A stretch of 64,000 nt of DNA from NCBI GenBank assembly GCA_949130485.1, contig OX422183.1:9700636-9764635 (forward strand). The letters run 5' to 3'. How positions within the stretch are numbered: position 1 is the first letter of the stretch; the number at the start of each line of letters is the position of its first letter. The position numbers were made by a program, and so were the translations under genes. A model generated the notes under the pieces. It ran no database searches. It saw only the letters and a program-made list of their open reading frames with translations, and was not told the origin of the DNA. Source of the DNA: Agelas oroides (Eukaryota > Porifera > Demospongiae > Agelasida > Agelasidae). This document shows positions 861 through 63,057 of the stretch, one piece after another.

Positions 861-1432
861 CTAAAGCCCTCGTGAGCAGTTAATAACTATAACATACATA
901 TGCATACTTTTGACTGGCATTGGTGAAGAAGTTAGATGTATGACTTGTGCTGGAGGAAGGATGGTCTGGTACTGAACCCCAACATCCTGTGAAGGAGCCT
1001 TGGGCTTTTCATGGATGGTTTCCAAATCAGCATAGTGAACACCAGACTGTACAGTATAGAGAACATTTAAATGAGAAAACATCTTACTATTCTGTATGCA
1101 TGCATGTGCATATCTCCATTGTATGTGAATGGTTTGTTGAAATGGTGCAGATTTGTTTGCAGCTTCTTGGCATGCTGAAGTGTAACCAGTTGAAATACCT
1201 GAATAACTTTTTTACCATCTTCAACAAGACTATGTGAAGCTGAAGCACTCATGCCATTTGATGTCACTGAACAGGAGTCTTGGCTGTGGCAAGACTAGTT
1301 AAAATGAAAAAATGAATAAACATTGTTGGTACACTAAAGTTGTGCGAATATCTTGGTCATGCATCTAATTGACTTTTACCTCTGTTTCATCACCCCTGTC
1401 ATGTTCAGATGGATTCCTCAGTGCTGTTTCCT
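861..1432 (-). CDS. Gene 1 exons 11-12: ITIM-like cytoplasmic tail
   Basis: Exon 1380-1432 (53 nt, phase 1 to 0) encodes EETALRNPSEHDRGDETE. Exon 861-1046 (186 nt, phase 0) starts SGVHYADLETIHEKPK and ends at TAG 863-861. It holds VHYADL and VQYQTI, two matches to (I/V/L/S)xYxx(I/V/L), with the tyrosines 21 residues apart. That is the usual spacing of paired ITIMs that bind tandem SH2 phosphatases of the SHP type. The last 20 residues are uncertain because a GTATGC donor-like site lies inside the exon. Confidence 0.62.
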
Positions 1433-40688: not shown

Positions 40689-40901
40689 TCAAGTGTGTAA
40701 CCAGGGACACTCTGTCTCTGAGGTTGGCGACGTACTGTCCTCACCATCTCTAGACACTACACCAGCATGCCTCTGAAGTAGACGCTTGTCCTTGCAATCC
40801 CTATCATCACTACTAGTACCACATATTTGTTTAGCTTTGATCATTGCTGATTCAGAACCTAGGTGATCACTAGCAGCAATGAAATCATCTTGACTGGTAG
40901 C
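40689..40901 (-). CDS. Gene 2 exon 20: C-terminal exon
   Basis: After acceptor TTTCCTTTGTAG it encodes 70 aa in phase 0, starting ATSQDDFIAASDHLGSESAM and ending TSPTSETECPWLHT, then TGA at 40691-40689. It is polar, Ser/Asp-rich and without a domain. It lies 4.7 kb from exon 19, with the non-LTR copy and elements A and B in the intron. It could instead end a separate gene, but the phase matches. Confidence 0.5.
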   Translation of the reverse strand, partial: ATSQDDFIAASDHLGSESAMIKAKQICGTSSDDRDCKDKRLLQRHAGVVSRDGEDSTSPTSETECPWLHT

Positions 40902-43900
40902 CTACAAAGGAAATAAATATAGAAGTAGCTATTAATAAGCATATAACTTCACACTGAGATTAATAGATTATACTATCACACAAAAATACAATTGACATTG
41001 CCAATTACAGTCCAAAGATTCAGTGTTATATACTACAAGACTTAAAAACATTAAAAATGTAAAAAGATGTAGGGATGGCATGCCAAAAAGAAGGCAAACA
41101 AGGTAGGGATAACGCATGAAAGCAAAGGTCAACATATTGGCAAAGCCCCATCCCTACATCTTTTTCACACTACAGTTAGGGCATGGGGGTCTTCCTAAAA
41201 CATACCACAAGTTCACAACCTTTATTACTGGCAGTTCATGGCTGTAGCCTCATTCTCAGGCCACTTCCTCCTCCCACATGGCCTGGTAATGAGGCTAGTA
41301 TGACCCTCTTGGCAGCATTATGTTATACGGAACCTCTTCAACAACTTAAGCAGTGAGTTGGAGTAGACTGCAGACTTATGATAGTGTCGTTCAAGTACAT
41401 GGCATGGTTTTAACCTCGTCCCCAGGCCACATTCCTTCTCCCACATGTTGGCTCAGGAATGAGGCTAATATGATCTAGCAGCATTGCATCAGCTGTAGTG
41501 TGAAAAAGATGTAGGGATGGGGCTTTGCCAATATGTTGACCTTTGCTTTCATGCGTTATCCCTACCTTGTTTGCCTTCTTTTTGGCATGCCATCCCTACA
41601 TCTTTTTACATTTTTAATGTTTTTAAGTCTCTGATACAGTGATGCAATGTCTGTGCTATAACGGCTACAATTTAGAATAATATTGCACTGTGAAAATAGT
41701 GATGCAGAGACATCTGTTTCTTGTGTATACACCCATGTGTCTAAATGTTCATTGAAATAATTGTGAATTTAAAGACCTGCAAAAAATTTGTGCTCTAATG
41801 GTAATTGTTATCTCCCATAGTCAGAAGAAACCAGCCCTCACTCCAACAAACACTCTCATGTGCATTACAGTCATGCTTTTCGATGTGTAAAGCCCTTGTG
41901 TGACTTGCTATAGAGTTTATGTGTAGAATGTGCGTCACCTTGAACTAATGGAAGGTTGACTACTTGCATCAAGTACATGTAACAACTCTGTCCACAATAA
42001 CTTACAAGCACTGCACATTAAACATCTACAAAGCAAGCATGCTGCATGACAATGCCCAAAACACATGCATACCCAAATAAGGGGGAGGGAGTGGTACTAT
42101 TAAATTAACTACATAAATTATACAATACTGTTCCAGTCCTACTGTAAAACCGGGATACTAGGCACCCATGGAAAATAAGCACCCCATGAATATAGGCACC
42201 CATTTTGATTACAACAACCACAATTGAGTTTATAAGCACCCATACAAACATAGGCACCCACAGAAAATAAGCACCATGAATATAGGCATCCATTTTGATC
42301 AACAACAACCACATCGCATTTATAAGCACCTATACAAAAATAGGCACCCCCAATGAAAAGGCACCTGTTACCCCGCAAACAAAAGTGAATTTGCTGATTC
42401 AGCTTTTTCGAACATAGCGACTAATTTTCGCCAGTGTCTAGCTCCGATTGCAAGCAAGTTATCGACACAGGATACACACCAAAATTTAGGCAAGACCTCT
42501 TGATAAAAACATAATCAGGAATTTTCGAAAACATCTAACGGATTTGTTAGTTCCATGCGCTTTACGTTGGTGGGCGGGGGTTAGCAACGATTGCTGACTA
42601 TATGTCTCTGGTTCTAAAAAAGCTATAAACATTGGACAAAAGTTAGCAGAAAAAGAACCTCCAGGCCTAAAATATACCGTAAACTCAGGAGAATAAGTAC
42701 CCATCAATTACAAGTACCCTATGAATATAAGTACCTATCAAAACCGCTGCTATCAATTCACTGAATAGTAGTACCCACACAAACCTATGAATATTAGTAC
42801 CAATCAGCCCGTAACCGGTCTGTGGTCAGAGTTTCATCGAGGACGAAATGTAGATAGCAGTAGCTAACTTTAGCTGTCCCAGGAGCAGCAGAAACAATAC
42901 TGAAGCTTGGGCAACAATGGCGAGATGCTACTTCACGGAAGCTCGCTACAGTCGGGATGCCGACGATGTTGTGCAATGAGCTACGTGTAGTGGTTTGGTC
43001 GGTTGGTCATGTGGCTGTTTTCGGTCAATAGTGACGCTGAAGATTGACAGCAGATGGCAGTAGGTCCGTTCGTAAGTGCAGACTAGTCAAGCAGTCTACT
43101 CTAGCGGTAGCTTTGGCGGTACCGCAGCATCACTATGGCTGCATATGCACTGCAGTTATTTAGCTTCATGGTATGGTACCCCATGATTATAAGTACCCTA
43201 TGCGATTGGCACCACAAAAATGCACATAAAAGTTTTGGTACTTATGCTCCTGAGTTTACGGTATCACAGCTAATCCGTTCCACACAACTGCACGCTACCA
43301 GAAAATTACATGCGTTTATTAGCACCCCATGAAAATAAGCACCCATTGTGGCTGCTAATTTCGAAAATAGGGACCGGTGCTTAATATCCCGATTTTACAG
43401 TATAGTATGTCAAGTCTCAGTAGTAGCTTTGAACCCAGGCTTTCCGTTCTGGATTTTATATTGTAGCTTTCGCTTTTCTCCAAAGTTATGAGACAAAATC
43501 TTGAACGGAAAGCCTGGGTTCAAGGCTATTTCAGTAGTATTGTTGCTGATCATGCAATCACATGTACCGTAGATCTGGGAATTTTTGTGTTGTAAAATTT
43601 TTGTGTTATATTACTTCGTGTAAAAAATCTTCATGGTCTACAATACCCACAAATCTTTTTACAATACTAAATGGATTCTATGTTCCAAGGTTGCTGCATT
43701 CGTGTCTACCACACAGATGCATGCGAAAGGGTACCGAGGAATGCTGTATACATGTGCTGTGGCAGTAAAGACGGATGATTATCAGATACAGAGAAAGTTG
43801 TCACGCATTTGCCATGAGTCATCTGCGGGTATCGAACTCGGAGGCCGTCTTGTGCAAAATAACTGGCTAGCTGCGCTAAAACGAAGAGTTTTTTTTTGTG

Positions 43901-45369
43901 CAAAACAACTATAGCTAGCTGTATTGTGAAACCATGTGTGCAAAATGTGCTGACCAGAATAATTTATATCCGTTGTAAAATTTTTCGTGGTTTACGCAAA
44001 CCAAAAAAAAAGCATTTTCACAATGTAAGTTTCCAGATCTACGGTATGACCGCGTATGCGGAGAGCGGTTTATGCAATTGGTTCTGTTAGTCAGTCTGAC
44101 TCAGTTGGTCTTAAGTCAGTAGGACTGCCAGTCAGTAGGTCTGTCAATCAGTCTAACAAACATATAATGTGGCAACTTACTTGAATAAGCAATTCTGTCA
44201 TATTATACTCTCACAATAGCAAAGCCTTTGACAGTGTTCCCCACCTTCCACTTCTCATGAAATTAGCTGTCATCAATGTTGATCCATATATCAGAAAGTG
44301 GGTTCATAGCTATCTATCGTGCAGAGAACAACATGTTGTTGTCAATGGAGCCAAATCACCAGTCTTGCCAGTTGTCTCCGGGGTTCCTCAAGGCTCAGTG
44401 CTTGGCCCACTGTTGTTTCTAATTTATATCAATGATGTAACCTGTGTAGTGTCAAATGGAAAGATGGTTGTGTATGCAGACGACATTGCTCTGTACCAAA
44501 TTATTCAGTCTCCTGAGGACTACCTCCTGGTACAACATGATATTAATGCTGTCTCTGAGTGGATTACTGCCAACTATCTGGCTTTGAACTATCGAAAATG
44601 TTGCCATCTACTCTTCTCACGTAAAAGATCTCCTACCCTTCCAGTTGCTCCACTAGAGGTCAATGGGAATTTTGTCAAACAAGTTAATGAATACAAATAT
44701 CTTGGAGTCATCCTAACCTCAGACATGTCGTGGTCATCTCACATCTCTGCCATCAGCTCTAAAACTAGAAAACTTATTGGGGTTCTTTATCGAAAGTTCT
44801 ATCTCTATTCAGAACCACATACCCTCCTACGTTTGTACCAGTCATTGATTCGTCCACACCTTGAATATGCTTGTAGTGTTTGGGATCCTCACCTGAAGAA
44901 AGACATTGAGAGGCTTGAGGGTGTTCAGAAGTTTGGGTTGAAAGTTTGTCTAAAGCGATGGCGATGTGGATATGAGGAACTCTTGCAACTCGCCAACCTT
45001 CCAACATTAGTCACAAGAAGAAAATGTTTAAAACTCTGCCTGTTCTACAACATGGTTAACAGGCTTGCTACTTTTCCAAACATTCCCACTGTTTTTAGAT
45101 CCACTCCCTATGGCAATTCTATTCGGTCTATTAACTCCAGTTCCATGGTACAGCCACGTGCGCATTCAAACTTCTATTCAAATTCATTTTTCCCCTCTTG
45201 TACTAGTTTGTGGAATAGTTTACCTTCAGATGTTAGTGCTATTTCTACCTTACCTGTTTTTAAGCGTGCCATTGTAAATTTGTTTTAGTTTTGTCTTTTG
45301 TCTTTGTAGGTTATCAGTTTATATTAGCTTACTAGCTACTTCTGATGACCTGATATAACAAATTTGTTC

Positions 45370-45407
<38 letters not shown>

Positions 45408-48400
45408 CGATTAGCGCAATTGTGTACCAGTGAAAATAACTAAAGTGATGCATTCCCAGTATCTGGATTGTCTCTGTATCCAGACAGCAAAACATCTATC
45501 TGGGTACAATGTCAGTCTTTGAATCTTAACACATGTGTCTAAACTTCTAGCACTTTTGGGATGCAATTTCAAGAAGGATGAATGTGGGGTAAGTGCTCTA
45601 CTTGGCACCTCCAGTTGTCATAGTACTCACCTCGATAGGCACCTCAAATATGTCACTAGTCCGTAGCACAGAATCCACATGACTGAAGTAACCTGGACAT
45701 AATAGACAATAGTTACAGGTACTTGTTACAGGCACATGCTTGCTTACTACTTGGATTACCTTCAGTATCTGGTACCTCACCAGGCAGCTGTTAAGATGAG
45801 ACACTTCAAGATAATTTGATAAGCTCTCAACAACATTGCATCATTGTTAACTTGTATTGATGATTCAGCTACTTACTTTTATGGAAGATGTACATCTGCC
45901 ACTTGGTGCATGCATCCGGCTACATATGAAAACCAATATGGACATCAAGTAATAATGCATGGCAAGGGGAAGTACTAAGTTACTAACTATGTCACTTGAC
46001 AGAGTCACAAGTATGCCGACTATACAGTTAACAAGCCTACATTGTAAGCAAACATTGTCAAGATCATTCACTAGCAAACATCCAATCATCCATACAACAA
46101 GCATGTCTGACCAGACTAAACTAAGCTAACTAAATATTCTGAGGTATGACACACTGTGAACTCACGAAGTGTCGAGCTGCTCAGCATAACTGACAGACCC
46201 TAAAGCATACAGAAATATCTCATTTTGGTTTAGACATACTAAATCACAAACATTCATGCAAAAATTACCAACAACGATGACATCTGTGCTCTCAGTAATG
46301 ACTGTGGTCTCAGAGGTACACTGAGTGCATTCAATGAGCTATAAAAAAGGATTGAAAAAATGAACCACAAGAATCCAGCGAGGAGTTATTTGTAGAACCC
46401 ACATTTGATAAAAAGGCAAAACCTACAATACGACAAACAAATCTGAAACAGAAGTCATAAAGAGAGAGGCAGATAATCCATACCTCTGGAGGGACAATGA
46501 CTTGATCCCAATGGGAGAAATCTCCAGCAAGGGCTACAGAAAAGTTATCAACAATAATTAATAGCACCTCTGTTAAAAGAGGTCCAATAATGTGAAACAT
46601 GACTACAAAAAAATAAACTAAAATTGTGCTGAGATTATAAGCTTACCAATGAAAGGTTTAATTGATGATTCTAACACTGAAAGACTTTGAGATTTCTGAG
46701 GTAAGACAAACCAATGTGAATCAGGAGAGCAGTATAGCCAAAGATACATCATCAAGCAACCAAATGTGGCAAGAGGGCCTTTGGCGACTTGATGCACTGT
46801 GCAATATGGCAAACAGGATTGATCTGGACTACAAAGATAAACTTACATAATCCTGAAGCATTGGTTTATGATCAAATGGTGCAATGATTTCATCAGACAC
46901 AGACAGCTTACTATAAGAAGAAGCAATGGTTGTGACTGGTAACACGTGTACACAGTACCAGATACCAACAGTGATACATACATTTGATCTTCTATCTCCT
47001 GCATAGTATCCTCTAAATCAATGTAGCCTGTATAACTTGAGTTAAGAATCTCCTCTTCTGAATACACAAGTGGAACATAAAAAATGAACAACGTACACAA
47101 GTTAGAATTGAAAGGGCTTCCTTTGCATGTATACAGTGTGTGGCAAGTTTTTAAAAATTTCACTGTATCCAGGAAGCTTCCCACTGCTTTTCAGCTTTCT
47201 AAGAGTATTCAAGCCCAATCCTAATGAAGGCATTTTGGAGAGTTGCCATTAGCAACAAGACTTGTGCATATTTATGCATATTCTTGCCATGCATCTAGCT
47301 TGCTATCCATATACCGTATAGCGGGTTATTTTCGTGGGTGGAAATTTTCGTGAAAAGCTGGAAGAGGCCCTCAGAATTAAATTTCGTGGTTTTAAATTTC
47401 GTGGCTCGCAATGTGAACTTTGAACTCGGTACACGTGATGCGGTTTCGACGAGGAACGCGTAGCCAGACTCTTGCTGGAAAGAGTCTGGCTATGCGAGAC
47501 TAGAGGAAAGATGGAGCGCTTCAGTGTCGCGTCTTACGTGGGAGGCTACCACGTCTACAAAGCACGAAGTCCGTTGGTGCTCGCATACCTGAACGAGAGG
47601 TACTGGCTCCGCTTTTTGGTTGTGCTTCTGCCTTGTTCACTTCTCTGTTCACTTCCTCCAGCACCACACGCGGGACAGCTTGAGAAAGGGGACCCTACGG
47701 ATCAAGGGCACTGTCAACAGGACACAAGTAGCGAAAAAGAGCTATAAAAAACGTCGCCCAGTCCGAACGTTAGCACGTGTAGACAGAGCAGCAGTGTGGG
47801 TGGAAAATTTCGTGGGTAGAAAATTTCGTGACACCAGGGTTAACCACGAAAATAACGAAAATTAGCACCCCACGGAAATAACCCGCTATACAGTACTACA
47901 GCTCTAGAATGTCATGGTAATTGCATCACCAACACTATTCAGGTGTATTAATATAAGGCAAGGGAGCTCTGACCAAGATATTAAAGAATACTAAATTGCT
48001 CACAGATGCCTAAGGGATACTGTTACATGGTAGGAATATTTTATGCACCACACTTGGTTTCCTTAATTACTGGAAGTCACAGCCACTCTAATAATTAATA
48101 AACAGCAACATGCATTCAACACATGAATGATGCACAGCAAACACACTATGAAAAAGGAACCAATTAACTTGTACATAATCCAGCTAGAAGTTGCTACTGT
48201 CCTTACAATGGCTGCCAAAAGTATTTTAAGGTGGGTTATGCTCTAAATAGACTTCTTGAACACTTAAATCGCAGCATAACTTTTGATTCAAGCTATAGCT
48301 ATTATTCTACCTGGGCCAGGCCAATGGTAGCTATACCTACATTCACATTTTCAATTGGAGATAATTTTAAGGAACAATTTCAAGCCATCCACCTTGCAAC

Positions 48401-51400
48401 AAGTCATTTTCCAACGCTTAGCTTGTTGTCAGACTGCAAATTAGCATCAGAAACATGATGTCATAGGCTACTTCATTGATCAGCCATTGAAGTTTGAAAC
48501 GCAGTGAGATGCCATGAGAGCTGTTCTACCAGTAATATTTTTCTGTGCATGGTGCAAAACATGTAAAAATAAGATGCTTACTTTCTTTTGGGCCCACCCT
48601 TTTTGGGGGGTAGATCTGCCCCTACCCCTGATGGTGACATTGATATTGCTTGTGGTAAGTACTTTTAGGGTAGAGAAAAGGGATGATATCTAAAGTGATG
48701 ATCTCAAGTACTGTCCCACATCAACATACACAGTCATCCACTCACACATCCCTCACAACAGACACAGACCTGGTTTATCGGCACATATCTCTTCAGCTTC
48801 CTCTGGTGGTGGTCTCTCAATGAAAGCAGGTTCCTGTCTATCTCCTGCTACCTCAGAGCTGGCTGAAGGTGGCATCCTTTCAGAACTAGTAGGTGGTGGA
48901 GCCACAGCTATCATCCCAGGAAGTATGTCTGCATGAGCATAGCAGAAACAAATGAATGGGGCATATTTGCAATTTTGAGTTGTTATGGTCCTAAGCGTAA
49001 ATATTTTCACAGCCCTCGTCAGAGTGCACTCATTAAATGGAAATTTAACTATATGTACTTACTCCAAAACACAGCTGTGTTTCTGTGTAAGCTGCCTAGC
49101 TATAACTGCAGAACATTAGTACATAGTACGTACTACTAGTTTGTGTTTACCAAGAGTTATTACAGTAATGAACTCTTGGGTTTACACAGCTGCTATGAAC
49201 CATGGCCACTTCAAGGGATGACATAAGCATTCTAGCATGTTATGATGAAGCACTAGCTCTTTGCACATATTCACTGAGCAGGATGAGGAATTCTATGGGT
49301 CAGATCTAGAAACACCTATGGTTGTTGCAGAACATTCTGATGCAGAAGACAACGGGAGTGAAGATGATTTGGACCTTGGCATTCTGATCGCTAGAGTTGG
49401 TTCAAATGAGGATGATCAGGCAAATGCCTGATTTGGATAGCATACGTCATCAATTTTCAACCTATACAAAAAGTTGACCGCTAGTGCCACCAGTTCTCGA
49501 CCGCTCTACGTATAGTTGACGGGAATTAGTATAAACGGAGGTTTGCAGACTTCAACCATGAGGCAGCTGCTTACATTGAGCGCCTACTGGGCTAGTTAAT
49601 ATATCCATGCGATTTCTGTTTCGAAGACGGACCAAAACTTAAGTATAGGTCAAGTCTATTAGCATGAGATCCAAACTATTTCTAGTCTGGCCAAAGGGTG
49701 AGGTGCCATGGATGGGAAGAAAGCTGGCTTGCTAGAATATCTGTAATGACCATGTACCTCATCTTAGCTAATGTTGTCTTACTCCGTAGGATATGGGGAA
49801 GCACAAACGCTTGAGACCTAACCCCAAGTTGTCCACAAGGTGTCAGCGTCCAAATCAACCAGCCAAGCTGCACTAGTGGAATAAAGCAGGAAGGGTCATG
49901 CATGGCTCAAATCTAGGACCTAAACCTTATCTGTCTGCAGAAGAACAAGAACTGGCTGAGTTTTTGATAACCAGTGCCAGAATTGGATATGGCAAGACCT
50001 GATCACAGGTTTTGACAATAGTCGAGGAAGTGGCTGCTAAGAAAGTGATAAATGTGAAGAAACATATCACTGACAGTTGAGGACTGTGTGTCTGATCTTG
50101 TTGACTTAGCAGTAGATGGCCCTTTGTGTCTCATTTGTACTGAGAAGTGAAAACATTTTGTGTTCTGTAATTTGTAGTCATTAACAAGGCTATGTCATAT
50201 TTTGCTAAGGTTGTTATGAAGCCTATATATGAGGCTGGGCAATAAAGCACAGTGAGTGGTCGACTTAACACCCATAGGCTGGGCTACAGTGAGTGGCCAA
50301 AATTATGTACACTGACTACCATGACATCAATAACCCACTGTGGACACTATACTGGTACTAGTATTTGTATTTTTTTTGCAGTGGTGACAGTGATTTAAGT
50401 ATATAGGGCACTTTGACTTTTGGTATTCAATAAATGTATGGACAGTCAACATTTGGTATCAGATGTCGACTTTTGATCTAACACAAGGTTTGGCATTCAG
50501 GTTCATAAATTTTCACTCGGGTGTGCTGTAAGTAGAGTGTAACTTAGGCAGACATGCTATCGATTGGTGGGAGGCAATACTCGCTACATAGCACAGAACC
50601 ACAGTTATGGTGGGAAGTTCAAAATTCAGTAGAGACTAGATGATTTATGCTAATAAAATGAAGCTAGTGCAAAAAGAGCTAGAAAGTGGATGTTGTTACC
50701 GTATTGTCCTGGGCAAGCACCCATGGGCACTCGCAGTTCAAGCACCAAAAATTGAGGGTGGGCGGTTACACGGAGGAGTTGCCTGAATGGTTCGACTATC
50801 TCCCACTACCCTGGATGCGAAGTTAGCTGTCGGGGTCTACTGAATTGACCTGCATCGTCGTGTTGCCTGTGCTTTGTCAAGGCCAGCCCGATGGTTTAGA
50901 AAGCTGTATCATGCTAGAAGGGGACCGGCTCGTGGCCTCGTTGCCAAGCTTCCACAGCATTTGTCACTTGCAGTACGCGGATTTCGTGCTGCAAGCAAAG
51001 AATGCTGCAAACAAGGCTACGGACGGGTGTGTGCGAAACTTTAATTGATGCCGGATGTAGTGGCACCTGAAATGCATCAGAATGATTGCAGCTATGTACG
51101 TGAGCTCAGCCGACCTACTTTTGATTCTCTCAGCAAGCATTTAATTTAGCATGGTGGGCAGTGACACGGAGGAGCTCGAAAAACCACAAAACTGTCAAAA
51201 TTTGGGGGTGGGCGCTTACGCGGGATGGGCGCTTGCCCGGGACAATACGGTACAATCAATTTCCTGAGGATGAGAAGTACTCAATTCAATTGCAAAAAAT
51301 AACTGAGCTAGAAAAACCAGAATGTGATATGTACACATTAGTCGAACTTTAAATCAACAAATATACTTAGCCAGGGACTCGGGTGCTTGGTATTTTCAAC

Positions 51401-54400: not shown

Positions 54401-57400
54401 CAAGCCCTAGTCTCCACAGAAAGAGTAATGAGTCCAAGTCAGAAGCCACCTTAGCACTAGTTTCGCATGGCTGTGAGACTGTTAGATTAGCACCGAAATC
54501 GTGATCGAGAATCACTGTAAATCCATGTGACTTGGCAGGCCTAGAGCTGGCATACATGGCGTATTAACACCAGTTTTCAACCATTGTATCCAGCATCCAA
54601 GTTTGTTCAGCTTTGGGTTTTATAACTTTTGGGCTTGGAACAAGATAAGTCATTGCTACTAACATTCATAGGTTACTTCTGTCTCATAGATACTACTATT
54701 CAGGAAATTGGCAGTAGCAGTTTATGCCTTTATACTTATAGTTAGAGTTCCTGTAATTGATGGTACTCGTACTTGCATGGTAGGAAATAGCTACAATAAC
54801 ACACTTTTGGCCGTGAGTAATGGAGGAGTGGGCTCTTCACTCAGAACAAAGGTGGCACCAGAAGGTAATGTTTTCCGGGGCAGGATATCTGAGTATTCAA
54901 CCACATCATCCTCAGTAGTCGCAGTGGGAGTGACATCAGTCAACAGGCCAGCATGGTGAGCTATATATATAGTTGAGAGGTCAAAGGTAGAGTAAACACA
55001 GTCAGATTTTGCCTTTCTGCACTGGATAGTGCTTTGAGTTTTGGACACAGCATGGCAAATATTGTCGGATTGCAGTGTTGCTGTCACTTTCTATGGTATA
55101 CACATGTTGTGAAAAAGAGTAGGAGCAGCAATCAGCCTTTTTTTAGCAATGAAGAAAACATATTGCCAAAAATGTGACAACACAAATTTTTAAACCCTTT
55201 GAAAACGTCCATTACACTTCCATTATATACTTTACTACGTGAGCCTATGGAGGCCTAAACCTTAAGTGAAGTAATAAGTTTATCTTGTCCGTAATGATGT
55301 TGTACAGTGAAACCTAGCTCTCTTAACAGACTTCTATAGTGGACACCTCATTAAATCAAACAAAAAATTTGCAGTTCGGATTGAATCTCCATTGCGTGCA
55401 ATAGTTTATAGTTCTCCAAAATCCAGACACCTCCATATTTCGTACAACGAACAATAAAAGCCATCCCAATTGTATGCAAACAATACTCATCGACCTTCAT
55501 TGATGCTGATCTACCTCTCCTCCTGGATATAACAACTGGAATATATTTTAGTGTTGATTGCAGAAACAGGCTCTCATTAACTTTTCTCACCAGCATGCTC
55601 ACCATATATAGAGCATAACACAGCCTAATGGAGTGAGTACTGAAAATATACCGGAAGTACTGGAAATATGGACCCCTCCCTACAGTAAATACGCAGCGTG
55701 GGTCCCTATGGTGTCCGTCTTAGAGAGGTTCTACTCTACTACCTCAGAGCTAGCCACAGATATCTACTAGTGCTCCTACACATCACAGAATCCCTGATAC
55801 TATTTCTACTGACACACACTCATGGATGTGCACATGATACTGAAATTTCTAACTTTCTGAACTGAAAATAAACACTCTTTAGCTCATTCTTATTGGTCAG
55901 TGATACAATACACCTATTTTAGATGTCCTCTGCCCTACTGATCATACCATCATTATCCTAACAGAATGGTATAATTTCAAATCTGGCTTCTGCTCAATTG
56001 TATTTACATAAATTCCAGAAACTGAGTTTCTTCTGCTAGATTAGATCCATTACTGTAATAGAAGCTTGTTTTCCAAGAAAGGCACTTGCCACACATGGAG
56101 GCCTCCTTACCACAGTGTTCAGTGGTTCAACTGCTTGCAGTACTGAGGCGCCAGAAGTGTGTAAGCGCAGAATGCAGGGAGCTATGACCATCCACTGTTT
56201 GTCATTTGTTAATATTTGTTTTGATAAGAACACCATCTGGATGCACTCCTTTTGTTTTGCCTGTGACTTCACATGCTTCCTGGTGCACTAAACAGCCTTT
56301 TCTCTACCCATGACTTTGCTTTGCTAAGAACACTTTGTGGCAGGTATGTACATTCTGCTAAATTGGATTCACTCAAAACAATTAGTGCAGCAGCCTTTCG
56401 CATGGATTAACAAAACTTCCAAGATTTTGAATTTCTTCTACTAGAATGGATCTACCGTTCTATTAGAATATGGGCAGTACTTTTTTTTGCAGATTTTGTT
56501 CACAAAATTTGTGCAAAATTAGGTAAGAAAGTACAGGTGGCAGTTCCAGATAGAAATCAAATATTATTCTGTGTTGTACATATTTGGAGCACATCACTGA
56601 GTTTTACATACTGCAGTGCTGAGCTTCCGAGCAGGGATCACACACGCTTCACAGACGCATCAGATATTCATACATCTACAAAGTGCGTTATGAACCCCAC
56701 TTTCAGTGGAAGATCAGTGTTGAACTTAATGATGTAATCGAAATATGTAGCAGTCTGTTTCTACTGCCATATATGCCGGCATATACACAATCGTGCATAA
56801 TTGAATATACAATACAACATAAACTCTGTTTTACTTGACTCCCTAACTAGACACAAACTGTCTAAAACCTACTGAAGACAACGTACTTTTGGTTGATAGT
56901 GGGGGATTGGTAGGTTCTTCACCCAGAACTAGGTTGGCACTCTCTGGTAGTGTCTTCCTAGGACGGACATCTGAATACTGAATCCTGATATCGTGTGCAG
57001 GGGGTTTCACAGGAAGTGTTCCCACATCAGAATCTGCTGGCTACAGGGAATAGACATCTTTGTGATTCAAGTGTTTGAATTGTAACACTGTCTGCAATCA
57101 GCTTCATCATACTACATTGTGTGACCATGGTTGGCTGTTGTTTGTTGCTCTCACTATCATTCATCTCACCTCTGGAGTTTCAGAAGTGATCAAAGATGAT
57201 GGCATATTGGATCCCACGTATGGTCCAGCAGTTTCTCATGGGTTTTCTACCCAGCTGGCTATGAAAGTAGCAGTGCAGTGCTAGAGATACTGTGTTAAAT
57301 TGTTCACGCGAAGAAGTGCACACTTACACATGCACAGCCTAAAATATTCCCGAGCAAAATTGTCGCTGAGTATATAGCATTGTGCTCAACAACCGATGCA

Positions 57401-60400
57401 AAAACATAGCACTATTATGGTATGTAAGCATATAGCTGAGTTGCAAATACATAATAATGTATAGGTACCTCCTGTTCAGTGTGTTGCTCTTCTATTTGGT
57501 GTTCATGGTAGGATACATTACTACAAACAGAAAGGAAGAGAAAATGCATCTATACTGGTTAACTTAGGATCAAAGCAGTCACATGAAAATGTTTACATTG
57601 ATAAAACTAAAGGTGGGAGGCTATGGTTTACACACACACTGCATTACAAATTTTGTGGAGTAGCTACATCCCAAAAGTTGTAGCTTCTCAAACTCTGAAA
57701 ATTCTTTAAGGTTAGGATGAGCATGTTTCTCGCTTGAATCTGTGAGTTGTGTGTGCAGGCATTTTAGCACTTCAAAATCCTATTAGAAAGACCAAAGACC
57801 AAGCTATACATGTACAACAGTGGCGGATTTAGGGGGGGTAAGGGGGGTGCAAATGCACCTCCCTTTGGTTGCTATAGTAGTGTATTTTTGCGTACATAAC
57901 TGCACGAGTCCATCAAATGATTATGCAGCAGTGGCATGCAGCAACAACAACCAGGCACAGTTACACACTCACGTATCAGTTCTTACTGATCTCCAGATGT
58001 TCGACTAGGCCTAGAGTTGCTTCGAGATATTCAGTTCGGACAAAGCCTTTGTAGCCTCTGCGGAGCTAGCGGAGCCACGCCTTTTAAATTCTGCAAGCGT
58101 TTAAAGGCTTCAAACACAATGACTAGATTTGGCAGTAGGTCGTCCAACTCTTGCTATTTCACCTCAAAACGGCACCAGAAACGATCTCAGAAGGTCTGAA
58201 ATCGAAAATTTTCTTGGGGGGGCATGCCCCCACACCCCCGTAGCGGGCGCGCTTTATTACGCTCCACCAAGTATAGCAATCAGTCAAGTGCACACTGGAA
58301 CCCCCCTTTTGAAAATCCTAGATCCGCCACTGCACAATATGCTGATTTGGTCACCAAGCAGGTTAAAATCCACACCATTTGGAACTAAGCCTTTTTTACC
58401 TCAAATATCTCCTTATTGAGTCGAACTCACTGTTTTCAGTAACTAGTCTCTTAGCACAAGCATCTAGGTAATGCTTGAAATTTGGGCACTACATGTGCTT
58501 AAAATTCTGAGTAACATTCTTTGTAAAACCATGACTAATAAAGCAAGAGTTTTCCTCCAGTTATTTGGCAAAAGTAAATGACAAAATTTTGTGTGGAAAG
58601 CTGCAGCAAATAACCTACTAAAGTTGATGGAAACTTGACAATGTATTGTAAGAACTGAAGACCAAGAAGTTGTTTTGCATTGTGTTATGAAACCTCCCTC
58701 CCCCACAAATTCCTTTGAATACCATTACAACACATGATTCTAATCTCAGGCAAGAAAATCAATTTTTAAAATTTGTGGCTAGATATGCGCTAACTCCCTA
58801 CAACACACACTGGAACATCTTATTTATAAACACATTCACAAGATACACATACTAGCTAGATGATGTACAATTAATAGCCATAGTTACGCACCTTTGTTGG
58901 GACACTGGAGGTCTCTCATCTAAGGGAATAGTAATAACAACATTGCGATATTATACACTTCACAGGCCATTAGTACTCACTTGCATGTTGGTTCCATTTC
59001 CAGCATACACATACAACAAGAGCCGCTGTACCTACTGTCACTACAACAGAAGAATGAAGTGCACATATAGGGTTTCCAAAGTAGTACTCTAACTCATGTA
59101 AATGTTCTTACATACCAGCAACCACAATTTTAGTAGTACAATCAGCTGCACATACCACCACAGCATCTAAAGAAGATAGTAATCATTAATGTTACAACCT
59201 TTTAATGCACACAATTTACATGTGGCAGTCCCATGCAGAAATCAAACATTGTTTATTTTGAACGTGTTACCACGTTCGAAGCACTGTAGTGCAGAGCTTC
59301 CATTAGAGGCAGGGGCTGATACATGCTGTGTAGATGCACGAATGCCTGACACATCTATATGCAGCACATATCAGCCCCACCCCTAATGCAATCACATGAT
59401 GGGCATGGTAATTTGTTTGAAAATAGTAAAATTGTATTCACCATCTTCTAGTTGAGGAAAACACATCCCTCTGTCTGATTTTGAAATTTCCTGACTGGTT
59501 TCTTGAGAAGGGTGTGTAACTTCAACACATCCCTTTGACACACCATCATCAGGACAAGTAACACAGATATGGTCATCAGTTGTGTTGATGATACTAAGCC
59601 CTGAAATATCAAACATAAATGGTCACATTTCAGTGAACCGTACATACATACATACATACAATAGTACTCAGGGGCATTAAGGACTGGGTCCAGGGCTTCT
59701 GAGGCTATATTATGGCAAAGTTTGAATCAATTTTATGACAAATGAAGAGGCTTAAAGTAATTGTTTTGTGTTGTTACACGTACCCCACCCTTATTGTTTA
59801 CTGTGACATAATTTTAGGCCACACCCACAAACAACTTAGCTATACCAAGCCCCTCCCTCAGGGTATATCAGTGCAATAAACGTGATATGCGGAATTTGCA
59901 CGAGCAAAATTTCACGATTCTTTTTGCACCATTACGTTCTATTTCAACTGGCCCAACTTTTTATCCGTGGGAATAGTCGATGTCGCTTTCCAAAGCGCTG
60001 GAACTGGCAAATATGCCACACCCACCGGCCATTTAAAGTGCCAGTTCGAACCTTTAGCGGTAAGCTACGAACTTTTCCCACGGTGAAATCAAAGACCATT
60101 AGATTTCTTCTCCATCAAACCCATTAATACACGCCAGCTCTCTTCTGACGAATTCTGCGTGAGTTACTTCCGGAAAAAGAGCTGCCAAGCGGCCATTATG
60201 CGGCTTATTCAAGAGTAGCTGGCACGTGCTACCGTACATGGTGCAAGTGACTCACTACAGAAGCGTTGAAAATTGCTGGAAGCGCTATGCAGAATGACTT
60301 TTAGTGTTACAGACGTGCCTATCGCATCACGTTTAGTCGAACGAGGTAAGGACAAGACTGTTAGGAAGAGTACAAGCCTACAACTGTCCTTCGGTACCGT

Positions 60401-63057
60401 GATAGCGAAGGTACTTAATTGCATTCCAAGGTTCCGCATTGTTTACATAGATACAACCGCCTTCCTGTTTATGGTAAGATAATGCCCGCCCCAAGGGTAA
60501 TTTAGGCAGCGCGCGCAAAAACAGCTGGACCCGGTCCTTAACGCACCTGAGTAAGGGAATGTAGAACACTGTGGGGTGATCGTGAGCAAGCAATGCACTA
60601 CAGCATTGAACTGCATGTTATGTAGCTAAGGCTGTTAAAGTATCAGATCACAGCACATAAGCCAAGCATGCATGGCATGTAGCTAAAACGAGGTTTGTAG
60701 CACTGTCTACAAAAGCTTAGAGAAAATTGTCATGTTGCAGAGAGGAGCTAGTCTTGCAAGCCACACCCTTCGTACAACAAAAGGTGTGGCTGGTGAGACT
60801 AGAGAAGACCTTGTCATGGAGTGGTACCACACAATTGAGCCATTTGCCCTACCAGTGCACAGCTACTCTGGTTGCTGTACAAGTAGGCTAATTAAGTCTA
60901 AACACAGCCTGGCATGCATAGTCCTTACTTGAGGCATCTTGGAGGAATAGCAGAGGGAAGTCACCACACATCAGCTATAGAGCAAAATCTCTTGCCGCCT
61001 TCTGTGTTCTGCAAGTAGCCTATCTACACAACTGTTGTTCTACACTCCAGATGCTTTTCACTTGTACATTAGGTGCGCATGCTCCGGCTGTCCTTCCTGG
61101 CTGTTTTTCATAACTGTCATCAGGCAAGCTCATGCTAGCTGGCTGCCAGAGAAGTCAAGTTGTACGAAAATCTTACTTACGTGTCGCTGCGGCCCACGGC
61201 AATCGCATTGAATTACATTGAATTACAGCATCAAGAATATGCGTAACGACGTACAACAGATAATAATAATTATACATGAAAAATTGCATTTAAACTCACT
61301 AGTGTGAGGCTCGCTCATGCTCATCCAAATTATACCGTAGTCTTGCGAAAGAGTGCCCACCTCATAGACTATGTCATGTGTAGAAGTTCATGTTTCAAAT
61401 TTTCACAGAGTAAAATCTTTGTGGACTGAACAAAAAGTTTACCCCTCAAAATTTCGCTTTATACAGTCCACAATGTGACATGAGCCAACTGCTGCTGCTG
61501 CTGCTAATTCATACATGTACGGTGCAGGTTGTAAGGTCACTTAGTACATATGCACTGCAACTGTTTTGTTTTAAGGTTACAGGATAGTCCCGGTTTTATC
61601 AATTATAGAGATGCGTCTAATAAGTATGCCGGCATAATTTCCGGAATAATCGGTTTGCGAAAGCATAAAGCATAATTCGGGAATAATCGGGCAGTTTTAC
61701 AGGAATAATGCACGTGTAGTGCTCGTCCAATGGAGTCGTCGGCTGCAGGTCCGAGCAGCAGCATAGAATCTAGCGATAGCGGGCCTAGCACTAGTAGTAG
61801 TAGTGGCCCAGCAGCTGTCGACAGCTCCGGAAGCGAGCCAGAGGATTCCCAGGAGCCTGGCCAAGAAGTCAACATTCATCATTATTGAGCAGGCTAAAAA
61901 TAATTGTGAGTTTTGTTGCGCAAAAACCCAGGCATAATGGGCACTTTCTTCAGCATAATTGGTACATTTCTTGAGAATTGCTTAAAAGCATAATAGGCGA
62001 GAAAAAAAGCATAATAGACTCATCCCTAATCAATTATATCAACATCAGATATCTCACACAGAGTGGAACGAAACCTACCAAATGCAAAGCAGGCCAGGTG
62101 CCTTACATGTACAACAAATACTTCTTAAGCATCCCATTTCGTAACTGTAGTAATCTAGTGGGGGTTACAGCACACTATTCACAAATGTGGAAATAACAAC
62201 CCTGAAAATACATTCCACCCAGTTCCATATTGTTGATGCACTTGCGGTAATTAACATATGAATATCGATAATCAATTTTAGAACAAAACCACAAGTCATG
62301 TATATAATTATCCAAAATGCATTCACATGGAGACAATGTGGAGGCATATAACATTGGTATAGCCTCGAACCCAGGCTTTGCATTTCGGATTTTGTTTTCT
62401 CCAAAGCTGCGAGACAAAATCCGGAACGGAAAGCCTGAGTTCAAGGCTAACATTGGCATGCCATGCCCAGTTCCAGAAAAATCATGCACTTAATCCTTTG
62501 TGTTAATTTTTCAGAGGATTGGTTCATCAGCTGGTGATAGTAAGATATACTAACCATATAGCCAGAAATGATGGCGGTCTATAAATTTGGCAGTTTGGCA
62601 CCAAACTGACCGTAAAAAATATTCACGGAATTTAAATTTGGCAGTGGGGTCTCAAGGAGTGTTGCCATCTCTCACTTTAGGCACTTGAACAAAGCCATGA
62701 GCTCGCAAATTTACAAGGGATAAAACTGGCAGCGTGCTAGCACCGGCCGAGCTAGCTACATGTACAGCTCACGTAGAGGGGCACCGTATGGGGCCAAGAG
62801 GGTACTGCGTGCATTACATCATTGCGCATTGCATACGAAATAATATTGGCGGATTTTAATTTTGTGGTCTTAACCCCAACCACCAAACTGCCAAATTTAA
62901 TTCCCCGTCAAACTTTCCGGCTATACGGTATAACTGCTCTCCTAATCAAAGCCCATAATCAAGTACATGGATGACATCACTCACCTGTTTGAGTTGTAGC
63001 TCCAACCAGGATCAATAGTGTCATAACACCGCCAATGATGTGGTGTCTCATTGCCAT
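40689..63057 (-). CDS. Transmembrane receptor with ITIM-like motifs and a Death domain (gene 2)
   Basis: I spliced 20 exons by eye: 62985-63057, 59442-59600, 59116-59166, 58981-59040, 58892-58919, 57469-57520, 56887-57040, 54805-54960, 52658-52927, 48770-48928, 46982-47057, 46847-46910, 46647-46695, 46484-46533, 46269-46338, 46166-46199, 45877-45919, 45760-45787, 45631-45692, 40689-40901. All junctions are GT-AG and every phase agrees. The total is 1851 nt, 616 aa plus TGA. Protein order: signal peptide (1 to about 23), Cys-rich ectodomain (24-89), TM (about 90-108), ITIM-like IQYSDV (Tyr163) and VEYSDI (Tyr215), Death domain (245-334), acidic/Pro-rich tail (335-616). A polyadenylation-like AATAAA lies 4 nt after the stop (40685-40680). 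The likely role is a signalling receptor that couples phosphotyrosine motifs to Death-domain adaptors; that is inference. Small exons may be missed or alternative. Confidence 0.72.
41039..41629. mobile_element. Foldback element with ~136-bp arms (element I)
   Basis: The left arm 41039-41174 (starts gacttaaaaacattaaaaat) is repeated inverted at 41493-41629. Each arm again carries 'tgtagggatg' near both ends, as in element H. Two short snap-backs of the TAGCCTC type (41245-41300 and 41411-41468) sit in the centre. Confidence 0.72.
42140..43402. mobile_element. Element A with element B nested inside
   Basis: The left end of A is tactgtaaaaccgggatac and its right end atcccgattttacagta. The interior is rich in 'ataagcacccc' and 'taggcaccc' words. 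Element B (42675-43263) interrupts it. Other copies of A at 2010-2415 and 51385-51905 lack B at this point. Confidence 0.65.
42675..43263. mobile_element. Element B, nested copy
   Basis: Termini are taccgtaaactcaggagaat and the inverse, ending tcctgagtttacggta at 43263. Sub-terminal words are 'aagtaccc' and 'ataagtacc'. The empty site at 2236-2260 suggests a TA target. A diverged copy of B lies at about 52085-52590 (end 'tctgagtttatggta'). Confidence 0.65.
43424..43528. mobile_element. Short snap-back with 9-bp duplication
   Basis: Ends tagctttgaacccaggcttt and its inverse, ttcaaggcta. Flanks are tctcagtag (43415-43423) and tttcagtag (43529-43537), 8 of 9 matching. It is a close relative of 62360-62449 with a shared 'aggctttccgttctggattt' type core. 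Confidence 0.65.
43565..44046. mobile_element. TIR element, TACCGTA terminus
   Basis: Ends taccgtagatctggga and tccagatctacggta (ending 44046). Sub-terminal words are 'tttttgtgttgtaaaattt' and gtaaaatttttcgtgg. It is 482 bp with no transposase. Confidence 0.55.
44206..45404 (+). mobile_element. 5'-truncated non-LTR retrotransposon (longer copy)
   Basis: The open frame enters at about 44206 with HNSKAFDSVPHLPLL (RT motif A region) and runs to TAG at 45286-45288. The ORF from the first ATG (44257) is 343 codons. It shows VSGVPQGSVLGPLLFLIYIN (motif B), VVYADDIALY (catalytic YADD), YKYLGVILTSDMSW and RPHLEYACSVWDPHLKK. A short 3' UTR and poly-A (45374-45404) follow. It is the same family as 16555-17421. 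It has no endonuclease or ORF1, so it cannot move by itself. The element lies in the last intron of gene 2, in the opposite direction. Confidence 0.85.
45631..47057 (-). CDS. Gene 2 exons 11-19: string of nine mini-exons in the tail
   Basis: Nine exons of 28-76 nt, all GT-AG and phase-consistent. They encode, in order, EEILNSSYTGYIDLEDTMQE; KLSVSDEIIAPFDHKPMLQD; KSQSLSVLESSIKPFIG; ALAGDFSHWDQVIVPPE; LIECTQCTSETTVITESTD; SVSYAEQLDT; RMHAPSGRCTSSIK; LPGEVPDTE; and GYFSHVDSVLRTSDIFEVPI. Y-I-D-L is a possible SH2 site. FSHWDQVIVPPE and FSHVDSV...FEVPIE look like related acidic motifs. There is no known domain. Individual mini-exons are less sure than the chain. Confidence 0.52.
47312..47894. mobile_element. 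TIR element with HIRAN-like remnant (element D)
   Basis: Ends taccgtatagcgggttattt plus tcgtggg, and the inverse at 47868-47894. The sub-terminal zone repeats 'aaatttcgtg' words. The interior (47511-47760) contains the HIRAN-like remnant. It lies in the intron between gene 2 exons 10 and 11. Confidence 0.68.
47511..47770 (+). pseudogene. HIRAN-like remnant
   Basis: ATG at 47511 encodes MERFSVASYVGGYHVYKARS, parallel to FKIESTVRGHHVYKAAWSPY of the ORF at 5512. After about 30 codons the parallel is lost, and a second frame picks up FLQHHTRDSLRKGTLRIKGT and VNRTQ, similar in position to the second half of the domain. It is deleted and frame-shifted. Confidence 0.4.
48770..48928 (-). CDS. Gene 2 exon 10: Pro/Glu-rich linker
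   Basis: Phase 1-1, 159 nt, encoding ILPGMIAVAPPPTSSERMPP, then SASSEVAGDRQEPAFIERPP and PEEAEEICADKP. It is proline-rich, with PPP runs that could bind SH3 or WW domains. The start 'ILP' and Pro/Ser context resemble the ILPRKTLP region of exon 8, perhaps a distant duplicate. Confidence 0.55.
49202..49432 (+). pseudogene. Relic ORF, acidic, probably transposon-derived
   Basis: ATG at 49202 reads MATSRDDISILACYDEALAL, then after a one-base shift EQDEEFYGSDLETPMVVAE, then DNGSEDDLDLGILIARVGSN and TGA. It is short, acidic and broken, and I cannot name the family. It lies upstream of the pogo-like relic at 49889. Confidence 0.3.
49889..50080 (+). pseudogene. pogo/Tigger-like (CENP-B type) transposase relic
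   Basis: One frame reads GRVMHGSNLGPKPYLSAEE, then QELAEFLITSARIGYGKT, stop, then SQVLTIVEEVAAKK, then stop. The phrase G-P-x-P-Y-L-S-x-E-E-x-E-L-x-x-F-L...G-Y-x-K-T is typical of the region after the first helix-turn-helix in pogo/Jerky/Tigger transposases. Two stops and the lack of the DDE domain make it a fossil. Confidence 0.5.
50697..51252. mobile_element. TIR element, TACCGTA terminus
   Basis: Ends taccgtattgtcctgggcaa and the inverse, ttgcccgggacaatacggta minus one base. The sub-terminal zones have 'gggtgggcgg' and 'gggtgggcgctta'. It is 556 bp with no intact ORF. Confidence 0.65.
51385..52590. mobile_element. Inverted, diverged copies of elements A and B
   Basis: 51385-51905 matches the reverse complement of the left half of element A (ggtgcttatattcgtggggt; 'gatgcggttgtaatcaaaat'). 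52085-52590 resembles element B ('ggggtacttataatcatggg' to 'actctgagtttatggta'). Both lie in the intron between gene 2 exons 9 and 10. Confidence 0.5.
52658..52927 (-). CDS. Gene 2 exon 9: Death domain
   Basis: A 270-nt symmetric phase 1-1 exon after a strong acceptor (TTTCTCTCTGCCATTGCAG). It encodes about 90 aa: LTLETLLTELHPTVTPKWQK, then LGELLGMDEDLLDEIFTNN, then CLRAMLEVWLQKSTNPTWKD and VTDAI. The W-x-x-LG-x-x-LG core (helix 2), an acidic helix 3, M-L-x-x-W-L helix 5 and the final T-W-K-x-V-x-x-A-I are the Death-domain signature. The domain mediates homotypic assembly with adaptor Death domains. Confidence 0.8.
53975..54371. mobile_element. TIR element, TACCGTA terminus
   Basis: Ends taccgtatttccttgattac and atcaaggaaatacggta. 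It is 397 bp. The interior is G/A-rich with 'gagggcgggaacaa' words. A plus-strand open frame ending KQSESSKSSSLPAMSVAA lies inside but has no recognisable domain. Confidence 0.65.
54805..54960 (-). CDS. Gene 2 exon 8: second ITIM-like motif, duplicate of exon 7
   Basis: Phase 1-1, 156 nt. It reads THHAGLLTDVTPTATTEDD, then VVEYSDILPRKTLPSGATFV and LSEEPTPPLLTAK. V-E-Y-S-D-I fits the ITIM consensus. The block xYSDxxPRKTLPxxAxxVLxEEPT is shared with exon 7, so the two exons arose by tandem duplication. Confidence 0.62.
55308..55741. mobile_element. Tigger/pogo-like non-autonomous element
   Basis: The left end is tacagtgaaacctagctctc and the right end, read inverted, tagagtagaacctctctaag. Both continue into acagac.../acggac... 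and a GTGGACACC/ACGGACACC box. CAGTRRAACCT termini with TA flanks are familiar from Tigger-type Tc1/mariner elements. It has no transposase. The pogo-like relic 5 kb away could be of the same group. Confidence 0.5.
56887..58919 (-). CDS. Gene 2 exons 5-7: juxtamembrane tail and first ITIM-like motif
   Basis: Exon 58892-58919 encodes ERPPVSQQ. Exon 57469-57520 encodes NVSYHEHQIEEQHTEQE. Exon 56887-57040 (154 nt) encodes PADSDVGTLPVKPPAHDIRI, then QYSDVRPRKTLPESANLVLG and EEPTNPPLSTK. I-Q-Y-S-D-V fits the ITIM consensus. Phases run 1 to 2, 2 to 0 and 0 to 1. Confidence 0.6.
57818..58332. mobile_element. GGCGGATT-type element
   Basis: Ends cagtggcggatttagggg and cctagatccgccactg, flanked by tacaa and cacaa. 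It is related to the element inserted in the STPR gene. It lies in the intron between gene 2 exons 5 and 6. Open frames inside are not supported. Confidence 0.55.
58981..59600 (-). CDS. Gene 2 exons 2-4: short Cys-rich ectodomain and TM helix
   Basis: Exon 59442-59600 reads IINTTDDHICVTCPDDGVSK, then GCVEV and GMCFPQLED. Exon 59116-59166 reads DAVVVCAADCTTKIVVA. Exon 58981-59040 reads VTVGTAALVVCVCWKWNQHA. The helix KIVVAVTVGTAALVVCVCW crosses the exon junction and is followed by K-W-N-Q-H. All three are phase 1-1. The open frame of exon 2 runs past its donor (GTGAAT) into YNFTIF, so an alternative end is possible but would break phase. Confidence 0.62.
60565..61328. mobile_element. Element K, copy 3
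   Basis: The left end is ggggtgatcgtgagcaagca and the right end gtgaggctcgctcatgctca. The sub-terminal text gacgtacaacagataataat and 'acatgaaaaattgc' matches copy 1. No STPR sequence is inside. A 53-bp snap-back (60749-60801) is nested in it. Confidence 0.5.
60749..60801. mobile_element. 53-bp snap-back element
   Basis: Arms tagtcttgcaagccacaccc and ggtgtggctggtgagacta with only about 13 bases between them. Flanks are gagaggagc and gagaagacc, 7 of 9 matching. It is the shortest member of the TAGTCT family here. Confidence 0.5.
61606..62028. mobile_element. hAT-like element with perfect 8-bp target duplication (element G)
   Basis: Ends tagagatgcgtctaataagt and, inverted, tagggatgagtctattatgc. 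Flanks are atcaatta on both sides (61598-61605 and 62029-62036). The interior repeats 'gcataat' like element F. TAGRGATG ends with an 8-bp duplication fit hAT. Confidence 0.72.
61730..61888 (+). CDS. Small Ser-rich acidic ORF inside element G
   Basis: ATG to TGA, 52 aa: MESSAAGPSSSIESSDSGP, then STSSSSGPAAVDSSGSEPED and SQEPGQEVNIHHY. It has low complexity and is Ser/Glu-rich. Such leaders are seen at the start of some hAT transposase genes, so this may be the retained first exon of the parent element. It is probably not functional alone. Confidence 0.35.
   Translation: MESSAAGPSSSIESSDSGPSTSSSSGPAAVDSSGSEPEDSQEPGQEVNIHHY
62360..62449. mobile_element. 90-bp snap-back with 9-bp duplication
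   Basis: Ends tagcctcgaacccaggcttt and ttcaaggcta. Flanks are acattggta (62351-62359) and acattggca (62450-62458), 8 of 9 matching. The arms carry gcatttcggattttgttttc and its inverse. It is a sister copy of 43424-43528. Confidence 0.66.
62552..62930. mobile_element. TIR element C, copy 2 (inverted)
   Basis: Ends aaccatatagccagaaat and the well-kept ttccggctatacggta. It corresponds to 21908-22279 in reverse orientation, with a short extra segment near 62780-62810. It lies in intron 1 of gene 2, 55 bases from exon 1. Confidence 0.62.
62985..63057 (-). CDS. Gene 2 exon 1: signal peptide
   Basis: ATG at 63057 (second Met at 63051) encodes MAMRHHIIGGVMTLLILVGA then T-T-Q-T before a GTGAGT donor in phase 1. 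The hydrophobic core and small residues near the end fit a cleavable signal peptide. This mirrors exon 1 of gene 1. Confidence 0.7.

Follow-up and report, generated by a model that had tools for sequence, protein, structure and literature searches.

A putative receptor family of the sponge Agelas oroides that joins ITIM-type tyrosine motifs to a Death domain

The receptor locus and its surroundings

The window analysed here is a stretch of 64,000 nucleotides (C1:9700636-9764635, C1 being the contig) of the Agelas oroides assembly, which was searched for relatives over its 259 Mb and 141 contigs. On the minus strand we re-derived from the splice sites a chain of 20 exons that runs from 63057 to 40689 and encodes 616 amino acids followed by a stop. 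Its 19 junctions are all GT-AG, in frame and consistent in phase, which reproduces exactly the gene model and domain order of the preliminary description. The chain starts with a hydrophobic N-terminus and a 53-residue Cys-containing exon, continues with a transmembrane segment (TM; residues about 89-110, the top Kyte-Doolittle window), the motifs IQYSDV (residue 161) and VEYSDI (residue 213) and a Death exon (residues 246-334), and ends in a tail of about 280 residues. From the hydropathy peak and the hydrophobic N-terminus it is predicted to be a single-pass protein with the tyrosine motifs on the cytoplasmic side. Its exons, all on the minus strand, are the following:

62985..63057 (-), exon 1: start and hydrophobic N-terminus, a candidate signal peptide (MAMRHHIIGGVMTLLILVGATTQT); no relative elsewhere in the genome search
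59442..59600 (-), exon 2: Cys-containing ectodomain piece, a 3'-truncated relative of a longer sister-receptor exon; read-through hits a stop where the relatives go on
59116..59166 (-), exon 3: juxtamembrane part of the ectodomain and beginning of the TM; boundary and phase agree with paralogue C
58981..59040 (-), exon 4: transmembrane segment ending in CVCWKW; at this place in paralogue C, a hydrophobic stretch ends in CWRKHR
58892..58919 (-), exon 5: short juxtamembrane exon, from the splice-site model
57469..57520 (-), exon 6: short cytoplasmic exon with VSYHEHQ, from the splice-site model
56887..57040 (-), exon 7: first ITIM-type exon, IQYSDV followed by PRKTLP and NPPLSTK; Ka/Ks of the ITIM region 0.30 against C
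54805..54960 (-), exon 8: second ITIM-type exon, VEYSDI; 59% identical to exon 7 over 32 residues
52658..52927 (-), exon 9: Death domain (PF00531, 26.2 bits; best profile match in the PDB the RIPK1 Death domain; Ka/Ks 0.09-0.31 against seven paralogues)
48770..48928 (-), exon 10: Pro/Glu-rich tail exon, poorly conserved
46982..47057 (-), exon 11: tail, SSYTGYIDL; tyrosines not kept in B or C
46847..46910 (-), exon 12: tail; boundary and phase agree in B and C
46647..46695 (-), exon 13: tail; entry without a phase match in C
46484..46533 (-), exon 14: tail; entry boundary and phase agree in C, and a DNA block conserved with C overlaps it
46269..46338 (-), exon 15: tail; boundary and phase agree in B and C
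46166..46199 (-), exon 16: tail; boundary and phase agree in B and C
45877..45919 (-), exon 17: tail; entry boundary and phase agree in C, and a DNA block conserved with C overlaps it
45760..45787 (-), exon 18: tail; boundary and phase agree in B and C
45631..45692 (-), exon 19: tail; boundary and phase agree in C
40689..40901 (-), exon 20: last exon with the stop; boundary and phase agree in B and partly in C

A reverse transcriptase fragment (44185-45285, plus strand) lies within the last intron of this model. Downstream, a second receptor gene of the same superfamily occupies 864-11836 on the minus strand, where an exon carrying VHYADL and VQYQTI comes after ectodomain pieces of Ig-like, FN3-like and other kinds; this ITIM-type exon has no Death match within 10 kb among the matches listed. 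Its recognized parts are:

11525..11836 (-): Ig-like exon (I-set E=0.0024, under the curated cut-off; tblastn to sister receptors)
8314-8724 and 3675-4130 (-): further ectodomain pieces (tblastn to sister receptors)
864..1211 (-): ITIM-type exon, VHYADL and VQYQTI 21 residues apart (ITIM-exon query E=0.45)

Elsewhere in the window are a GC-rich tandem array at 31821-35712 (73-bp unit, about 53 copies, 97% matches), which is open in several minus-strand frames, and a minus-strand open frame at 26988-28805 with a reverse transcriptase and a sub-threshold GIY-YIG match, a combination from which we take it to be a Penelope-like element.

A family of Death loci on one contig

The preliminary description regarded the in-phase junctions as unlikely to arise by chance, and this argument did not hold. 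Run without exon-boundary hints on eight decoys (four plus strands, one unrelated 30-kb stretch and three shuffled queries), our purpose-written spliced aligner strung together 11 to 31 in-phase GT-AG introns on each; in-phase splicing therefore proves little, and we rejected it as proof of a gene. The number of ITIMs was likewise rejected as stand-alone evidence: a motif scan does find IQYSDV and VEYSDI, but two such motifs in the tail of the window chain are not significant against shuffles (P=0.14 with a loose and 0.07 with a strict pattern). What carries the claim, at the level of sequence, is the family in the same genome, and conservation among the paralogues is its real support.

A genome search with the Death exon returned at least 149 matches, of which we looked at eight family loci and at two clusters on contigs C20 and C7. 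Among the matches listed, seven close relatives of the window's exon (60-77% identical, E<=2.3e-27) are all situated on the minus strand of C1:

C1:9777133 (-): Death paralogue A
C1:9872943 (-): Death paralogue B
C1:10575575 (-): Death paralogue C
C1:20401136 (-): Death paralogue D
C1:9591555 (-): Death paralogue L005
C1:10162769 (-): Death paralogue L006
C1:10479206 (-): Death paralogue L008

At all eight loci, the window included, an ITIM-type exon lies 0.26-3.0 kb upstream of the Death exon on the same strand. The ITIM-exon query yielded 20 genome matches at E<=10, and 13 of them belong to the eight Death loci; the best match per locus ranges from E 4.4e-20 to 0.008 (the weakest, at L008), while some of the 13 are weak (E up to 0.41) and one is a duplicate 9.8 kb upstream in B. 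The B locus contains an 8.85-kb tandem duplication (C1:9874116 and 9882968), by which an FN3-like piece and the ITIM exon are repeated before a single Death exon. On C20 (3199000-3206500) and C7 (1732000-1738500) several Death-like exons were seen by eye in a row on one strand, the best of them 43 and 41% identical, respectively; in these two clusters (7.5 and 6.5 kb, read by eye) we found no ITIM-type exon and only scattered single motif matches.

The window protein was submitted to spliced alignment with A, B, C and D, leaving L005, L006 and L008 aside. The scores were 775 for C, 565 for B, 552 for A and 506 for D, against 137-178 for the plus strands, 149 for the unrelated 30 kb and 102-130 for the shuffled queries. 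In the alignment with C (590 columns), 10 of 23 introns fall on an exact window boundary with the same phase by manual count, namely the entries to exons 3, 8, 9, 12 and 14-19; the corresponding figures are 8 of 19 in B (one into a 4-base exon), 3 of 22 in A, 2 of 24 in D and 0-1 in the decoys. Under a looser count (within 2 residues, same phase) A has 3 and D 2, no better than the 0-4 of the decoys, so that A and D back only the ITIM and Death part and hardly the tail. B and C are recent duplicates that are still alignable through their introns, and thus count as one witness. At the DNA level the window and C share 11 blocks: six overlap exons 2, 7, 9, 14 and 17, and the other five fall in introns and are presumed to be repeats. 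Wherever the Death exon was aligned (window, A, B, C and D), its entry is in phase 1, and the order TM, ITIM, Death, tail is kept in C; continuity from TM to Death is seen only in the window and C. Exons 10-20, joined into one tail query, found only themselves in the genome, and relatives of the tail did emerge by exon-wise and spliced alignment. The single receptor chain of the preliminary description thus stands insofar as TM, ITIMs and Death domain are collinear and in phase in the window and in C; it is not one odd gene, but a member of a family of eight Death loci plus ITIM-only relatives.

The Death and ITIM parts have low Ka/Ks. For the Death exon (NG86) the window gives 0.28, 0.28, 0.21 and 0.19 against A, B, C and D, and 0.31, 0.30 and 0.09 against L005, L006 and L008, the last value resting on a saturated dS of 2.65. 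Region by region against C, with codons chosen by the aligner and the values thereby biased downward, Ka/Ks is highest in exon 2 (0.74), stands at 0.54 in exons 11-19, 0.52 in exon 10 and 0.51 in the TM region, and falls to 0.30 in the ITIM region (B and C together: 0.28-0.30).

The tyrosine motifs are conserved in most members. Among 17 ITIM-exon rows that we read, 10 carry both motifs, two carry one and five carry none at the aligned places. The paired motifs have the form S/I/V/LxYxxI/V/L, and the 10 rows represent nine distinct exons (B being present twice), all nine with V, L or S at position -2 of the consensus and a tyrosine-to-tyrosine spacing of 21-24 residues; examples are VLYTDV/VKYSGI in A, LHYADL/VQYSDV in C, VHYADV/VQYSVV in L008 and LVYAQL/VQYAQI at 10544541. 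Two motifs arise in 0.04-0.5% of shuffles of the same trimmed exons, with some ascertainment in the count of pairs since the search query itself contained the pair. Exons 7 and 8 of the window are duplicates of each other that each retain only the second motif of the usual pair, and its ITIMs are for this reason 52 residues apart; the "paired" motifs noted earlier are indeed two in one tail, but not the usual pair within one exon. The five rows without motifs are exon 8 of C and both rows each of L005 and L006, the tyrosine being replaced by cysteine in the former and by phenylalanine in the latter two. At least one ITIM stands at an aligned place in six of the eight Death loci, and the tyrosine is lost at two.

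Some relatives end with the ITIMs. Those at 10544541 and 10133231 on C1 (the latter with VVYAQV/VQYAQI; motifs 22 residues apart in both) run from the paired ITIMs into EHQD and a stop, with no Death domain, and are candidate ITIM-only inhibitory receptors. Two sister receptors that share the exon-2 domain (L020 and L021) end in VxYxPV..H-stop, and an end of this type is matched by the receptor lying upstream of A.

Death domain, ectodomain and putative partners

Exon 9 was proposed earlier to encode a Death domain, and the HMM search bears this out: PF00531 matches a 98-residue read of the exon with 26.2 bits (E=8.8e-6; cut-off 22.6), and the whole 616-residue chain with 21.7 bits, just under the cut-off. 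In the Pfam scan of that chain up to E=1, Death is the only family reported. A profile built from seven of the eight family exons (L006 was omitted as near-identical to L005) was compared with the PDB and matched the Death domains of RIPK1 (E=6.6e-4) and THOC1 (0.0038), followed by FADD (0.04) and p75NTR (0.17). A single-sequence AlphaFold (AF2) model of the exon has six helices at a pLDDT of 57, and Foldseek with this model gives the RIPK1 Death domain as its best match, at E 2.0.

Outside the membrane the window copy looks like a truncated version of its relatives. Upstream of the C locus, on the same strand, lies an Ig exon at 10594854 (PF00047, 23.2 bits; cut-off 21.8), and the B locus likewise has one at 9890596; both loci have further ectodomain pieces upstream without a Pfam name, and Pfam assigned no family to the FN3-like, d0, d1 and exon-2 pieces. 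Their order and strand suggest that these exons belong to the same transcript as the Death exon. Between 59.6 and 63.1 kb of the window no relatives of the Ig, FN3-like, d0 and d1 pieces were detected at E<0.1, and Pfam found no Ig domain in the 616-residue chain. The donor of exon 2 lies within the longer exon of the relatives, and the frame stops beyond it. The "short Cys-rich ectodomain" described earlier is therefore present as a short Cys-containing exon, but it is probably a truncated remnant, relatives B and C having Ig and further pieces upstream; given the missing relative of exon 1 and the truncation of exon 2, the window copy may be decaying.

Putative partners are encoded in the same genome. 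At the exon level SH2 and PTP gave 91 and 179 matches, respectively. By our reading, four sets in the order SH2, SH2, PTP, PTP stand on one strand at C3:1.39-1.48 Mb (C3:1378738-1477016), and one more is found on C28. In the gene that we inspected, the joined exon pieces match SHP-2 (PTPN11) with E about 1e-122, and its catalytic loop, HCSAGVGHT, has His in the position of the CX5R Arg. The DED gave 40 genome matches, 28 of them above the cut-off.

Interpretation and comparison with known receptors

The window locus belongs, to judge from the sequence, to a real receptor family, whose function we can only infer. We read it as a family of type I receptors with SHP-type docking ITIMs, a Death domain similar to those of RIPK1 and FADD, and a tail that evolves fast, which together would act as a brake and a trigger, and give this reading a probability of roughly 0.6. 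A single transcript would encode the receptor, and its product would be expressed at the cell surface, where an Ig-like ectodomain (in the window copy a short remnant) may bind a surface ligand or a microbial product. Putative kinases of the Src-family type would phosphorylate the ITIM tyrosines, and the tandem SH2 domains of an SHP-like phosphatase would dock on them; the docked phosphatase would make the receptor a local brake and keep the adjoining Death domain from nucleating an assembly. With phosphorylation lost, or under strong clustering of the receptor, the Death domain may recruit Death/DED adaptors with caspase-type or NF-kB-type outputs. Phosphatase signalling would in this way be coupled to Death assembly, as the analogy of Fas (PMC4778973) and TRAIL-R (PMC10967194) suggests, and the switch might run in either direction.

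An unlikely alternative is that the loci make two products: ITIM receptors that terminate with the ITIM exon or beyond it and, immediately downstream, an intracellular Death gene of its own (Death exon plus tail), to which alternative splicing would at times connect them. On this view the ITIM-only relatives represent the standard form. Those ending in EHQD and a stop at 10544541 and 10133231 fit it, and so do L020 and L021 with their VxYxPV..H-stop and the receptor upstream of A, which aligns to that end; two ITIM-type exons, at 9546564 and 9701583, for which the matches listed include no Death domain within 10 kb, and the joined tail exons, which find only themselves in the genome, point the same way. 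Against it, ITIM and Death exons are neighbours on one strand at eight of eight Death loci, all five members aligned enter the Death exon in phase 1, and C retains the full order from TM to tail. Rather less improbable, but still doubtful, is that the window copy is a decaying pseudogene and the 20-exon chain the reconstruction of a dead locus, as the missing Ig and other ectodomain exons, the read-through of exon 2 into a stop, the solitary exon 1, the reverse transcriptase fragment in the last intron and the ectodomain Ka/Ks of 0.74 against C would suggest. Such a locus is hard to reconcile with 616 open codons and every splice site present, with a Ka/Ks of 0.09-0.31 for the Death exon against all seven paralogues tested, with an ITIM region at 0.28-0.30 against B and C, or with both ITIM tyrosines of the window intact.

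The YxxPhi consensus fits both endocytic signals and ITIMs, and the YxxV/I motifs could be endocytic or SH2-adaptor sites that, together with PPPLPTK-type prolines, organize trafficking or SH3 adaptors of a plain Death receptor. The fit of the motifs to YxxPhi and a P-x-x-P-x-K/R sequence in three of nine paired exons (A, D and the exon at 9546564) agree with this, as does Fas, where phosphorylation of Y291 primes clathrin-dependent endocytosis according to PMC4778973. We nevertheless consider this explanation improbable in view of the -2 residue (V, L or S) and the 21-24 spacing in nine of nine distinct paired exons and of the several SHP-type tandem SH2 genes in the genome. Trafficking signals are not known to need either the ITIM -2 residue or a pairing at 21-24 residues.

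We know of no vertebrate paired-ITIM inhibitory receptor (LILRB, KIR, Siglec, SIRP-alpha) with a Death domain in its tail. In inhibitory receptors the ITIMs of a pair are usually about 20-30 residues apart; the relatives' pairs (21-24) compare with this, and the window has IQYSDV and VEYSDI at 52. Our receptor family shares with these receptors the type I TM topology, the S/I/V/LxYxxL/V/I pairs, Ig exons upstream (in B and C only, the window chain having none), ITIM-only tails and SHP-2-like genes in the genome; it differs in the Death domain, in the Ig-less window copy and in a recruitment of SHP that is only putative here. In UNC5-type receptors ZU5 and UPA precede Death, with Ig and TSP1 outside; Pfam up to E=1 reported neither ZU5 nor UPA in the window chain, so that this UNC5-type feature is absent. 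The allorecognition receptors of Hydractinia (Alr) and Botryllus are clustered genes with ITIM/ITAM-like tyrosine motifs in the tail, and are set apart by description, since to our knowledge none has a Death domain there. With Fas/CD95 and TRAIL-R the window chain shares a TM receptor with a cytoplasmic Death domain; it differs from them in that consensus-fitting, usually paired ITIMs stand in separate exons between TM and Death, and in that Pfam up to E=1 detected no TNFR family. Because the TNFR ectodomain repeat was not detected, we file the family, on its sequence, as a variant of the ITIM-type receptor and not as a TNFR death receptor.

In the literature, LILRB receptors are also described in PMC11999971. 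The preliminary description placed inhibitory tyrosine motifs and Death domains on different vertebrate receptor families, which is too strong: as reported in PMC4778973, the death-domain tyrosines of Fas are under the control of Src-family kinases and SHP-1, phosphorylation by the former switching apoptosis off and SHP-1 reversing this. Fas provides an earlier example of a death domain under tyrosine control. TRAIL-R, according to PMC10967194, is said to lack ITIMs, yet binds SHP-1 at its death domain. Among sponges, the Death-domain NLRs of Dysidea avara (for example NLRD; PMC12909245) are likewise an expansion of immune genes with Death domains in an early animal, but they are NACHT-LRR proteins and not TM receptors with ITIMs. 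That no receptor with this domain order has been described agrees with the open-access PMC papers listed and with passages of the reviews PMC11999971 and PMC9505182, in which no receptor with ITIM and Death domain appears for a sponge or other invertebrate.

Paired ITIMs and SHP are usually treated as brakes of vertebrate immune cells, and Death-domain receptors as a separate class. We tentatively suggest, as a possibility short of an even chance, that an early-branching animal possesses a complete ITIM-SHP inhibitory system (Ig ectodomains, paired ITIMs and an expanded SHP array), one branch of which joined its brake to a Death domain, with allorecognition or the control of symbionts as plausible uses. 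If so, both messages, "do not respond" and "assemble a death complex", would meet in a single tail. From Fas, the control of Death assemblies by tyrosines is known piecemeal. Should the chain prove real, ITIMs and Death would stand in cis in a non-vertebrate animal, at several loci and in a genome with SHP-2-like and DED genes, and the origins of ITIM-SHP checkpoint signalling and of the tyrosine control of Death assemblies would become directly testable.
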